Below are positions 23,160-26,679 of a stretch of 53,765 nt of DNA, piece by piece. The DNA is from Bacillota bacterium (GTDB taxonomy: Bacteria > Bacillota > Dethiobacteria > DTU022 > PWGO01): assembly GCA_012518215.1 (NCBI GenBank), contig JAAYSV010000054.1:1-53765 (forward strand), in the 5' to 3' direction. Position 1 is the first letter of the stretch. Every line of letters begins with the position of its first letter. The notes under the pieces are model-generated. The model searched no databases. It was given only the letters and a program-made list of their open reading frames with translations, and was not told the origin of the DNA. The position numbers were made by a program, and so were the translations under genes.

Positions 23160-23538
23160 AAACGGGCATGGCAGGCCGTTTTAAAAATATTGTATGTTCA
23201 GGAAGGAGGATTTATCAGTCAAATTGAAGAACTCATGATTGAAACCGTTTCCAAAATCCGATCCCTGTATCTTGCAAACTTTTCCGGACTCAAGCAATTC
23301 GAAAATCCTGCAACGGTCCATTCCCTGGCCAGGTTTCCGGAACGAACGACAATCCGGCCTGGCCTGCGAAGCAATAATTGTACCTGACCACATGCCAATT
23401 GCACACGAGGCGATACACTCCTGTTGAATTAATGCCCAGAATAGCTTACCATTACTACCAGGGATCGTCAGGTGGATATAGTTTGAATTTAAAAGCGATA
23501 GGATGGAAAAACTAAATCTGGGGAGGGAGTTACATAAA
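23160..23538. other. Divergent spacer upstream of manC fusion; no gene recognised
   Basis: About 380 bases separate the yceD promoter from the manC fusion. A plus-strand frame (23118-23387) begins inside the yceD promoter and has no ribosome binding site at its start codon; a GGAGG at 23205-23209 is not followed by a usable start. A small AAAACGG/CCGTTTT hairpin lies near 23159-23182. A promoter for the manC fusion must be here, but no convincing -35/-10 pair was found. Confidence 0.4.
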
Positions 23539-26500
23539 ATGTATGCTGTCATACTGGCTGGCGGCAGTGGAACACGCCTCTGGCCGTTAAGCAGGGAACA
23601 GTATCCCAAATACCATTTGCAAGTAGCTTCGGAAGGAACCGGAAGTCTTTTTGAGCAGACAGTCGCCAGGGTCAACACCCTGGTGCCCGAAGAGAAGATC
23701 ATCGTCGTGACCCACGAGAACCAGAAAAGTGACCTTGCCACGGTCCTTGGCCGCAATGACAAACAGGCCGTTACCGTTATAGGTGAACCGCAAGCCCGCA
23801 ATACCGCCCCCGCGGTGGGGCTTGCCGCATGGTTCCTGAATGCAAGGGATCCGCAAGCTGTGATGGCCGTCCTCCCCTCGGATCACTATGTGAAACCGGA
23901 TGAACGATTCGTGGAGTTGCTTGAAAAAGCAAGCCATGCCGCAGCCAGATATGGCCTGGTAACCTTCGGTATCCGTCCGGATGCACCTGAAACCGGCTAC
24001 GGTTACATCTGCTGCGGTGACCCTCTCGATTCTTCCACCTGTCTGGTTGACAGATTTGTAGAAAAACCTGACCTGGAGAACGCGCGCAAATTCATTCAAG
24101 ACGAACGTTACCTGTGGAACAGCGGAATGTTCGTCTTTCATGTTCCATCACTGATGGATGAATTCCGCCGTCATCTCCCCGAAATTGCCGATCTGCTGGA
24201 CCGGCTGGATCTCGAGCAATTCAGCAATCTGCCCGAAATATACGAACAGATGCCCTCGATATCGATCGACTATGGAATCATGGAGAAAGCAGAACGGATT
24301 GCAGTTATCCCTGCTGATATCAACTGGAGCGATGTTGGAAGCTGGGAATCATATTACCATATGCTCACCCATGATGAAAACAAGAATGCACTTCAGGGCC
24401 GGGTGCATGATGTCGATACCACCGGTTCGCTGGTTATATCCCCCGACAGGGTTGTCGGAACCATCGGATTGAAGAACATGATCGTCATTGACACCCCCGA
24501 TGCCCTGTTGATCTGTGATCGAGATAAAACACAGGATGTTAGAACGGTTGTGGAAAAACTCAAGGAAGAAGATGCAGAGGAAGCTTCCATACATAGAACC
24601 GTATACCGCCCGTGGGGCAGCTACACGGTCATTGCCGACGGTGAGGGCTTCCAGGTGAAGACCATCATCGTCAACCCCGGGCATCGGCTCAGCCTGCAAC
24701 GACATCGTTACCGTTCCGAGAACTGGGTGGTGGTCAACGGGACTGCCCGTGTAACCCTTGACGAGAGCGTGCATGACCTCTCGCCGGGCGAAAGCATTTT
24801 TATCCCGATCGGCAGCCTGCACCGGCTGGAAAATACCACCGGGGAGATGGTCCAGATCGTCGAGGTCCAGAACGGAAGTTACCTGGGTGAAGATGATATT
24901 GAACGCATTTCGGATGATTATGACCGTGTCAACAATCCCGGCACGGTAAATGATTCCCCTGCAAGGAACAACTTTCAAACCATGTATGAAAAATGGCTCA
25001 ACCATCCCGGGCTTGATGAACGGACAAAAAAGGAGCTTCTGGACATCGGTGATGACCCGGAAGAAATAGAAAACCGTTTTGCCTCGGAACTCCAGTTCGG
25101 GACAGGGGGTTTCAGGGGCATCATCGGTGCCGGGCCCAACCGCATCAACAGTTTTGTTGTCCGCCGGGCCACGCAGGGACTGGCCAACTACATCAATGAC
25201 ACCTATCCGGAAGAGCCGGATAAAAAAGTGGCCATCGCCTACGATTCACGCCATTTTTCCAGGGAATTCGCCCAGGACGCGGCCCTTGTCCTCTGTGCCA
25301 ACGGGATCAAAGCCTGCCTCTTCGAGGAGCTGAGGCCCACCCCGCTGCTCTCCTTTGCCATCAGGGAACTTGGTTGCCTGGCCGGTATCGTCATTACCGC
25401 CAGCCATAACCCTTCCCGCTACAATGGCTACAAGGTTTATGGCCGTGACGGGGGACAGGCAGTTCCCTCCCTGACTGCAAAGTTGACCGAATACATCGCC
25501 AGGGTGGATGTTTTTGATGATGTCAAACATATCTCCCGTGATGAAGCGGAGCGGAAAGAACTTCTCATCGCCGTGGGTAAGGAGATCGATGACCTCTATC
25601 TGGCAAATGTAAAAACGCTATGCCGCCACGAAGGCAACAAGGATCTTCGCATTGTTTACACTCCCTTGCATGGAACAGGTTATCCCCTTATCCCCAGGCT
25701 ACTGGAAGAACTCGAATACAGGCATCTATTCATGGTTCCGGAGCAAGTATCGCCTGATCCCGATTTCCCCACGGTAAAAACGCCCAATCCCGAAGACAGG
25801 GAAGTTTTTACCATGGCGCTATCCCTGGCCAGAAAGGAAAATGCCGAAATAATCCTGGCCACCGACCCCGACTGTGACCGGGTCGGGTGCGCGGTGAAAG
25901 ACAAGCACGGGGAATATACCCTCCTCAACGGCAACCAGATCGGGGCTCTGCTGGTCAATTATCTCCTGCAAGGGATGAAAGAGGATCATTCCCTGCCTTC
26001 CAACGGTGTCATTATAAAAACAATTGTTACCGGAAACCTTGGAAAAGTGATTGCCACTGACTACGGTATCGAAACTATTGAAACCCTTACCGGCTTCAAA
26101 TTCATCGGTGAGAAGATCAAAGAATTTGAAGAAAGCGGAACCAGGGAATTCATCGCCGGTTATGAAGAAAGTTATGGCTACCTGGCCGGTACTTTTGTAA
26201 GAGACAAGGATGGCGTGATATCTGCCGCCCTGATCACCGAGATGGCCGCTTATTATCGGTCTCGAGGCAAATCTCTCCTGGATGTACTGGAAGAGCTCAA
26301 TCAAAAATACGGTTATTTTATCGAGGAACTTCAATCCATCGAACTGGAGAATCCTGCCGAGGCCGAAAAGATGATCCGTGTTCTGTCCGAGGTGAACCTG
26401 GACAGGATTGCCGGTATAGCAGTCGCGGAAAAGAAAGATTTCATGAAAGGCAAAGCCATCGAGCCACGGACCATGGCCACCAGGGATCTTCCTTTTCCCC

Positions 26501-26679
26501 GAACGGAAGCAATCCTTTTTGATCTGGAAGACGGTTCCTGGTTCTGCGTCCGGCCATCCGGAACCGAACCCAAGTTCAAGATCTACTATTCTACCAACGG
26601 CAAAAACTACGGCGAAGCCAGACAGCGGATGGACCGCCTGACGGAAGAAGTTCAGGTAATCCTTGAAAGCAAAAAATAG
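23539..26679 (+). CDS. Fusion: mannose-1-phosphate guanylyltransferase + cupin + phosphoglucomutase/phosphomannomutase
   Basis: A 1046-residue, three-part protein. Residues 1-340 are a ManC-like nucleotidyltransferase with AGGSGTRLWPLS (7-18), FVEKPD and WSDVGSWES. Residues about 350-465 are a type II mannose-6-phosphate isomerase cupin. Residues about 480-1046 are a PgcA-like alpha-phosphohexomutase with phospho-Ser622 in TASHNPS, metal loop DPDCDR (776-781), sugar loop EESYG (876-880) and phosphate loop RPSGTEP (1005-1011). It could turn hexose-6-phosphate into the 1-phosphate and then into GDP-mannose. In the cupin the usual HxH and EHW residues read H389-R-Y391 and E394-N395, so isomerase activity is doubtful. 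The start follows GGGGAGGGAG; an upstream ATG adds 12 unneeded residues. Confidence 0.9.
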   Translation: MYAVILAGGSGTRLWPLSREQYPKYHLQVASEGTGSLFEQTVARVNTLVPEEKIIVVTHENQKSDLATVLGRNDKQAVTVIGEPQARNTAPAVGLAAWFLNARDPQAVMAVLPSDHYVKPDERFVELLEKASHAAARYGLVTFGIRPDAPETGYGYICCGDPLDSSTCLVDRFVEKPDLENARKFIQDERYLWNSGMFVFHVPSLMDEFRRHLPEIADLLDRLDLEQFSNLPEIYEQMPSISIDYGIMEKAERIAVIPADINWSDVGSWESYYHMLTHDENKNALQGRVHDVDTTGSLVISPDRVVGTIGLKNMIVIDTPDALLICDRDKTQDVRTVVEKLKEEDAEEASIHRTVYRPWGSYTVIADGEGFQVKTIIVNPGHRLSLQRHRYRSENWVVVNGTARVTLDESVHDLSPGESIFIPIGSLHRLENTTGEMVQIVEVQNGSYLGEDDIERISDDYDRVNNPGTVNDSPARNNFQTMYEKWLNHPGLDERTKKELLDIGDDPEEIENRFASELQFGTGGFRGIIGAGPNRINSFVVRRATQGLANYINDTYPEEPDKKVAIAYDSRHFSREFAQDAALVLCANGIKACLFEELRPTPLLSFAIRELGCLAGIVITASHNPSRYNGYKVYGRDGGQAVPSLTAKLTEYIARVDVFDDVKHISRDEAERKELLIAVGKEIDDLYLANVKTLCRHEGNKDLRIVYTPLHGTGYPLIPRLLEELEYRHLFMVPEQVSPDPDFPTVKTPNPEDREVFTMALSLARKENAEIILATDPDCDRVGCAVKDKHGEYTLLNGNQIGALLVNYLLQGMKEDHSLPSNGVIIKTIVTGNLGKVIATDYGIETIETLTGFKFIGEKIKEFEESGTREFIAGYEESYGYLAGTFVRDKDGVISAALITEMAAYYRSRGKSLLDVLEELNQKYGYFIEELQSIELENPAEAEKMIRVLSEVNLDRIAGIAVAEKKDFMKGKAIEPRTMATRDLPFPRTEAILFDLEDGSWFCVRPSGTEPKFKIYYSTNGKNYGEARQRMDRLTEEVQVILESKK

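Follow-up and report, generated by a model that had tools for sequence, protein, structure and literature searches.

A ManC-cupin-mutase fusion typical of one bacterial order and its predicted single-chain route from fructose-6-phosphate to GDP-mannose

Introduction

Type II phosphomannose isomerases (PMIs), also known as bifunctional PMI-guanylyltransferases (AlgA, WbpW, XanB, C. burnetii CBU0671), consist of a ManC-type nucleotidyltransferase followed by a PMI cupin and are, to our knowledge, without a mutase. The phosphoglucomutase PgcA of B. subtilis, in turn, is a stand-alone enzyme. Here, we analyze a stretch of DNA of 53,765 nucleotides (nt) from a Bacillota bacterium (assembly GCA_012518215.1, contig JAAYSV010000054.1), hereafter the window, in which a single gene encodes the same nucleotidyltransferase and cupin, to which a 570-amino-acid (aa) PgcA-type mutase is added after the cupin. 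The latter is of the same class and has the same catalytic motifs as B. subtilis PgcA, but is fused behind ManC-cupin. Such a ManC-cupin-mutase fusion was not named in the titles and abstract openings that we found in the open-licence literature.

Results

In the translation of the window, positions 23539 to 26679 of the forward strand form one open frame, uninterrupted by stops and 1046 aa in length, whose parts are the following:

23539..26679, + strand: full fusion gene ManC-cupin-PgcA, 1046 aa, stop codon included (open frame, domains, single-frame relatives)
23539..24561, + strand: ManC-type mannose-1-phosphate guanylyltransferase, with NTP_transferase at aa 3-280 and beta-helix at aa 288-341 (Pfam, fold match, conserved positions)
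24571..24915, + strand: type II PMI cupin, aa 345-459, proposed mannose-6-phosphate isomerase (PF01050, 144.3 bits; conserved positions)
24934..24963, + strand: linker NPGTVNDSPA, aa 466-475, 10 aa (variable length in relatives, low model confidence)
24964..26676, + strand: PgcA-type phosphohexomutase, aa 476-1046 (PGM_PMM I-IV, conserved positions, fold match)
25402-25404, + strand: expected catalytic Ser622 of the mutase (motif)
24982..24984, + strand: internal ATG (Met482), a second start proposed earlier and judged weak (14 nt from the end of AAGGA; not conserved)

The Pfam matches, all above cut-off, are NTP_transferase (3-280), ManC_GMP_beta-helix (288-341), the cupin MannoseP_isomer (345-459) and the four PGM_PMM domains I (519-655), II (687-789), III (797-924) and IV (962-1017). 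In other words, PF00483, PF22640 and PF01050 follow one another in one chain, which is the layout of a type II PMI, and the first part of the protein matches the NCBIfam model TIGR01479 (GMP_PMI) with 505.5 bits against a cut-off of 372.95. These matches bear out the three-domain make-up given in the initial annotation, and its assignment of the C-terminal mutase to the PgcA-like class is supported as well: all four PGM domains are present together with the phosphoserine, the metal loop, the sugar loop and the phosphate-binding residues. The GlmM-like match in the window's genome is 26% identical to the fusion mutase, and the mutase tree described below is made up of PgcA-like rows only, with no GlmM or AlgC row. 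In Pfam, no hexapeptide domain matches the fusion up to an E-value of 0.001; the cupin occupies that place. As for the start of the gene, an earlier in-frame ATG lies within the open frame at 23503, but the relatives begin with MYAVILAGGSGTRLWPLSRE or close by, at the position of 23539, in agreement with a start there. The internal start at 24982, suggested earlier as a source of the mutase alone, fared less well. Namely, the ATG is present, but its AAGGA lies at a spacing of 14 nt, outside the 4-12 nt required of such a site, and a scan of 31 fused loci, of which four run into contig ends and two are without cupin, revealed a junction start with a Shine-Dalgarno-like site in four, at three differing relative places, the window not being among these.

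The fusion is genuine and typical of one bacterial order. It is present at full length and in one frame in 25 of the 71 genomes of the order, including the window's own (G000, G002, G004, G009, G014, G016, G021, G024, G028, G034, G040, G045, G050, G051, G053, G054, G056, G059 and G062-G068, where G000 is the window's genome and G063 is counted although its first residues are missing at a contig end), while 50 of the 71 have some match at 1e-60. Four further genomes carry the fusion either cut by contig ends (G036, G052, G061) or with a 304-aa linker (G012), and in G020, G030, G044, G060 and G069 there are short pieces only, at or near contig ends, so that the fusion count is a lower bound. In G002, which belongs to the same family as the window's genome, the single-frame fusion is 63% identical. 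In G007, the same parts are split between two abutting genes separated by a TGA, and in G043 a shortened ManC with a damaged signature is joined to the mutase with no cupin. Beyond the order, a single hit at 1e-200 or better came from the 26 genomes of other orders of the class, and this was a lone mutase, not a fusion. In a phylum sample of 398 genomes, with two candidates scored per genome, three hits outside the order reached 1e-230, each of them a mutase by itself. In the GTDB collection, at least 595 stretches matched, and among the 80 retained, ManC and mutase share one frame only in L032 and L033, which are the order members G056 and G014, and in L034 (UBA4049; order not established), where they are fused and the cupin is missing. 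Finally, 470 of 72,556 plasmid records matched at 1e-40, and the two that cover at least 80% of the query do so with separate genes. In all, the three-domain fusion was not found outside the order in the class, the phylum sample, the GTDB matches listed or the plasmids. The single chain claimed initially is thus upheld by the one 1046-aa frame and its single-frame relatives, and the claim that it is unusual stands outside the order, as far as these searches reach, but not within it, where the fusion is widespread.

The positions expected to be catalytic are conserved. Seven cupin positions, including Q387, H389, E394 and H428, which we take to be the metal ligands from the cupin motif, are the same as in the window in all 29 fusions having a cupin. 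The same holds for 20 mutase positions (including Ser622, D776/D778/D780, E876/S878 and R1005/K1014) in all 29 fused rows that hold them, and for 16 ManC positions in 25 of 30 fused rows, the exceptions being L115, L116 and L128 (signature variants), L127 (truncated) and L022 (damaged). The mutase motifs align by motif with S146, E403, S405, R535 and K544, the residues of B. subtilis PgcA named in PMC6797236.

In the AlphaFold model (mean predicted local distance difference test score, pLDDT, 77.8; predicted template modeling score, pTM, 0.56), pLDDT falls below 50 at aa 458-477 and in parts of 267-358. The ManC part superimposes on T. maritima GDP-mannose pyrophosphorylase 2x5s_A (Z 31.2, 3.1 A, 288 residues) and the mutase part on 9du5_A (Z 40.0, 3.2 A, 445 residues); this comparison covers these two parts of the protein. 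Between the BLAST matches of cupin and mutase there are 10 aa in the window and anything from 2 to 304 aa across relatives, and the linkers are, by eye, low in complexity. Such variability argues against a rigid channel, and a flexible tether would fit better than a fixed channel. The channeling originally envisaged for this protein consequently finds no support in a strict sense, given also the pLDDT below 50 in the linker and the occurrence of the parts as two abutting genes in G007. The longest linker is that of the G012 fusion (L132:2387-6490); the idea that this insert of approximately 304 aa is a fourth enzyme was rejected, as it is of low complexity and has no Pfam match.

How did the fused and unfused forms arise? 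We built a mutase tree from 70 of the 124 sequences with a match longer than 480 aa and identity above 35%, rows L036-L111 being thinned to every fourth apart from L046, L089 and L095. On one side of a branch (support 100/100) lie 41 rows that include all fused ones, the stand-alone mutases of the same kind from the order, and those of G219 and G432, from another family of the phylum, which sit beside UBA4049; six mutases from three-gene clusters fall outside this group. The state changes six times between fused and unfused on this tree, with any ManC or cupin fusion scored as fused and L165, where the contig ends, excluded. A clade of fused mutases of their own was rejected (approximately unbiased test, p 2.2e-5, for a group named after the first tree was seen). 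In a ManC tree, built quickly and with no bootstrap, the unfused ManC-cupins of G032 (97% with G014 and G034) and G007 (89%) are interspersed with fused ones, and that of G027 lies at the base. What is more, two stand-alone mutases start, by eye, with apparent cupin-tail remnants, that of G029 (MDMEHFADDFGHVPGQ) and, less clearly, that of G032. In six f5 genomes, the cupin, the ManC and a distant mutase are instead encoded by three genes in a row. We read the history as an early fusion followed by several splits or losses, repeated fusion being the alternative. Genus g18 may display stages of decay, with ManC damaged and the cupin lost in G043 (L022), and nothing but a mutase whose start resembles a cupin tail remaining in G029 (L137).

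The setting of the fusion's relatives, with a glycosyltransferase of family 4 (GT4) just upstream and sometimes a second GT4 and a mannoside phosphorylase of glycoside hydrolase family 130 (GH130), is new here. In G014 and G028, GH130, a 348-aa GT4 (GT348), a 780-aa GT4 with a long C-terminal part (GT780) and the fusion follow one another on the same strand, and in the window's genome, GT780 (55%) and GH130 (67%) lie side by side on contig C49, away from the fusion:

L140:7535-15308 and L139:7571-15103: GH130 - GT4 (348 aa) - GT4 (780 aa) run leading into the fusion
L182:16127-18586 and L183:127-3951: 820-aa GT780 homologue and GH130 gene, G000 contig C49

A GT780 homologue immediately precedes the fusion, in the same orientation and with 38-577 nt between the matches, in 18 of the 25 full-length fusion genomes (mostly seen partially, at most 1.5 kb of flank being covered). 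It was not found upstream in G000, G002, G059, G065 and G066 (1.1-1.5 kb of flank for the last three), and in G056 and G063 a contig edge lies where it would be. It also precedes the fusion in G012 and G052, the unfused ManC-cupin of G032, and five of the six three-gene clusters, the sixth being at a contig edge. Searches of G036 (2.75 kb of flank), G061 (0.5 kb), G043 (0.6 kb), UBA4049 (5 kb) and the second ManC-cupin of G027 did not find it. Since GT780 lies upstream of fused and unfused ManC loci, and of none of the ten stand-alone mutase loci, it goes with ManC and not with the mutase. In G021, GT780 and GT348 are present with no GH130 within 6.9 kb, and in G007, GH130 and GT348 with no GT780. 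Where they adjoin, these genes presumably form one transcript. In the window itself and in G002, the fusion stands beside plsX and fab-type genes, with yceD and plsX of the window assigned by Pfam and the genes of G002 by eye. Contig C49 also holds a second, shorter GT780-like frame of 414 aa (L182:10907-12148), and GT348 was not seen in the stretches of the window's genome that were examined. The NCBIfam mannobiose phosphorylase matches of the C49 GH130 are all under cut-off; its best match among solved structures is TM1225, a beta-1,4-mannooligosaccharide phosphorylase according to PMC8950772.

Discussion

Taken at face value, the domain order and the conserved positions suggest that one polypeptide probably makes GDP-mannose from fructose-6-phosphate, its domains arranged as beads on a string; what each domain does, which way the flow runs and what is made are all inferred in this way. 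The cupin would interconvert fructose-6-phosphate and mannose-6-phosphate, the PgcA-type mutase would interconvert mannose-6-phosphate and mannose-1-phosphate, and the ManC domain would turn mannose-1-phosphate and GTP into GDP-mannose, with the variable, low-complexity linker keeping the mutase near the other two domains without a fixed pose. As a prediction, the route from hexose-6-phosphate to GDP-mannose in one chain, put forward in the initial annotation, is thus supported, and it would begin at fructose-6-phosphate if the cupin is active. GDP-mannose would then be used as donor by the GT4 glycosyltransferases whose genes precede the fusion in most relatives, and mannose-1-phosphate would be the intermediate on which mutase, ManC domain and GH130 converge. 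As the isomerase and mutase steps are reversible in these enzyme families, the chain could also return mannose-1-phosphate released by GH130 to fructose-6-phosphate, and the fusion would in this way serve both the synthesis and the recovery of a mannoside. Provided that each of the three domains is active, a single gene holds the whole route from fructose-6-phosphate to GDP-mannose, a compact enzyme for GDP-sugars. Moreover, the order supplies natural split and long-linker forms, and UBA4049 a cupin-less one, which makes the value of the tether directly testable.

That said, several observations weigh against such a route. At 1e-60, nothing matches in G022, G038 and G042, genomes of the order that are near-complete (96-98%); the cupin is dispensable in UBA4049, where the ManC-mutase fusion persists in its absence; and neither in the window nor in G002 is the fusion adjacent to glycosyltransferases. 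The cupin motif of the window reads QRHRYRSENW and differs from QMHHHRAEHW, which we presume to be that of AlgA-type enzymes. A PMI motif is, in addition, no proof of PMI activity, other proteins that bear it having lost the function (PMC3204966). Finally, Gly523 of the mutase seems to match the PGM-type Gly47 of B. subtilis PgcA, which PMC6797236 gives as a phosphoglucomutase, and GalU is present in 11 of the 25 fusion genomes (absent in 14), so that the mutase may serve UDP-glucose as well.

Could the cupin be a bystander? The chain would then be a bifunctional ManC-mutase with a structural or regulatory cupin that performs no isomerization, and mannose-6-phosphate or mannose-1-phosphate would come from sugar uptake or GH130. 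The UBA4049 protein is a natural ManC-mutase that has no cupin, and a GH130 gene occurs in the window's genome and also precedes the fusion in G014 and G028, GH130 phosphorylases releasing mannose-1-phosphate directly (PMC4264767). We nevertheless regard this possibility as rather unlikely, for all 29 cupin-bearing fusions have the same putative metal ligands in this domain, and the two other PMI families that were searched for, other cupin families not being surveyed, are absent from the order: type I PMI (PF20511) was found in 0 of 71 genomes, with matches in 7 of 14 control rings, and bact-PGI_C (PF10432) in 0 of 71, with matches in 3 of 14. Because of these two absences, the cupin of the fusion is the leading PMI candidate.

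It is quite improbable that the mutase acts mainly as a phosphoglucomutase carried along by ManC, with the link to mannose being minor. The PgcA class and Gly523 speak for such a role, as does the retention of the mutase together with GalU, and with no ManC match, in G001 (of the window's family, with a stand-alone mutase), G008, G017 and G029 (with its apparent cupin-tail remnant). However, the three other genomes of the order that have a mutase without a ManC match, G006, G019 and G033, have no GalU, nor was GalU found at 1e-40 in the window's genome or in the fused G002 of the same family. On a Lactococcus plasmid, moreover, a PgcA-type gene adjoins nucleotidyltransferase and type I PMI genes amid glycosyltransferases. 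PGM_PMM_I, in turn, matches at three places in the window's genome, namely in the fusion, in a GlmM-like protein (457 aa, by eye) and in an 826-aa NTP_transferase-hexapeptide-PGM protein (L146:7430-9907, contig C38). The mutase part of the latter is, by eye, without the TASHNP phosphoserine motif and may be non-catalytic, which would leave the fusion as the only intact candidate phosphomannomutase besides the GlmM-like protein.

As for an assembly or sequencing error, or a frameshift, that joined two or three genes, the two- and three-gene forms of the order (G007; the six f5 genomes) could be taken to suggest one, but the recurrence of the identical single frame in 25 assemblies, with divergent linkers, rules it out for all practical purposes.

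Returning to the proposed route to GDP-mannose, what would its product be used for? The recurring GT4 and GH130 neighborhood points to a candidate mannoside made by these bacteria. The fusion could even be the mannose-1-phosphate hub of a bacterial mannoside cycle with a logic comparable to that of mannogen in Leishmania, which we consider unlikely. In such a cycle, the chain would take fructose-6-phosphate to GDP-mannose, the GT4 pair would build an intracellular mannoside, and phosphorolysis by GH130 would yield mannose-1-phosphate, to go back to GDP-mannose or down to fructose-6-phosphate with no ATP spent. What counts against it is, first, that retention of the alpha configuration is expected of GT4 enzymes. 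Second, the GH130 phosphorylases described in PMC4264767 act on beta-mannosides, from which they form mannose-1-phosphate, so that the cycle would need a second linkage or a reversed GH130. Two other fates of GDP-mannose were rejected. Mannosylglycerate made by the PF09488 route is not a likely product, as this family was found in 0 of 71 genomes (1 of 14 control rings), other routes to mannosylglycerate not being searched. GDP-mannose 4,6-dehydratase is not a likely consumer, as PF16363 matches the window's genome at nine places, and the matched stretches of the best two, which are those the gmd scan covered, score far below the gmd cut-off, the top one being GalE.

Comparison with known systems

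Within the same genome, the 826-aa NTP_transferase-LbH-PGM protein, which we presume to be MPG1-like, also joins a sugar nucleotidyltransferase to a phosphohexomutase-like domain. It has a hexapeptide helix in place of the cupin and a mutase part that looks degenerate, and is by architecture a separate fusion. In Clostridiales bacterium UBA7001, a 1015-aa UDPGP-PgcA frame (L046:3675-6719) likewise places a nucleotidyltransferase ahead of a PgcA-type mutase, but the former is a pyrophosphorylase of the UDP-sugar type, there is no cupin, and the mutase groups with those of Lachnospiraceae and other clostridia. A known counterpart of the neighborhood is the cluster of Thermoanaerobacter sp. X-514, in which GH130 phosphorylases stand beside a mannose-1-phosphate guanylyltransferase and a GT4 mannosyltransferase, with mannose-1-phosphate as the shared intermediate; there, the mutase and PMI genes lie elsewhere, genes for an ABC transporter and for GH5 are present, and the available part of the source mentions no fusion (PMC4264767). 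A search of the window found neither GH130 nor GT4 adjoining the guanylyltransferase, whereas in G014 and G028 both lie next to the one contained in the fusion, in the manner of Thermoanaerobacter.

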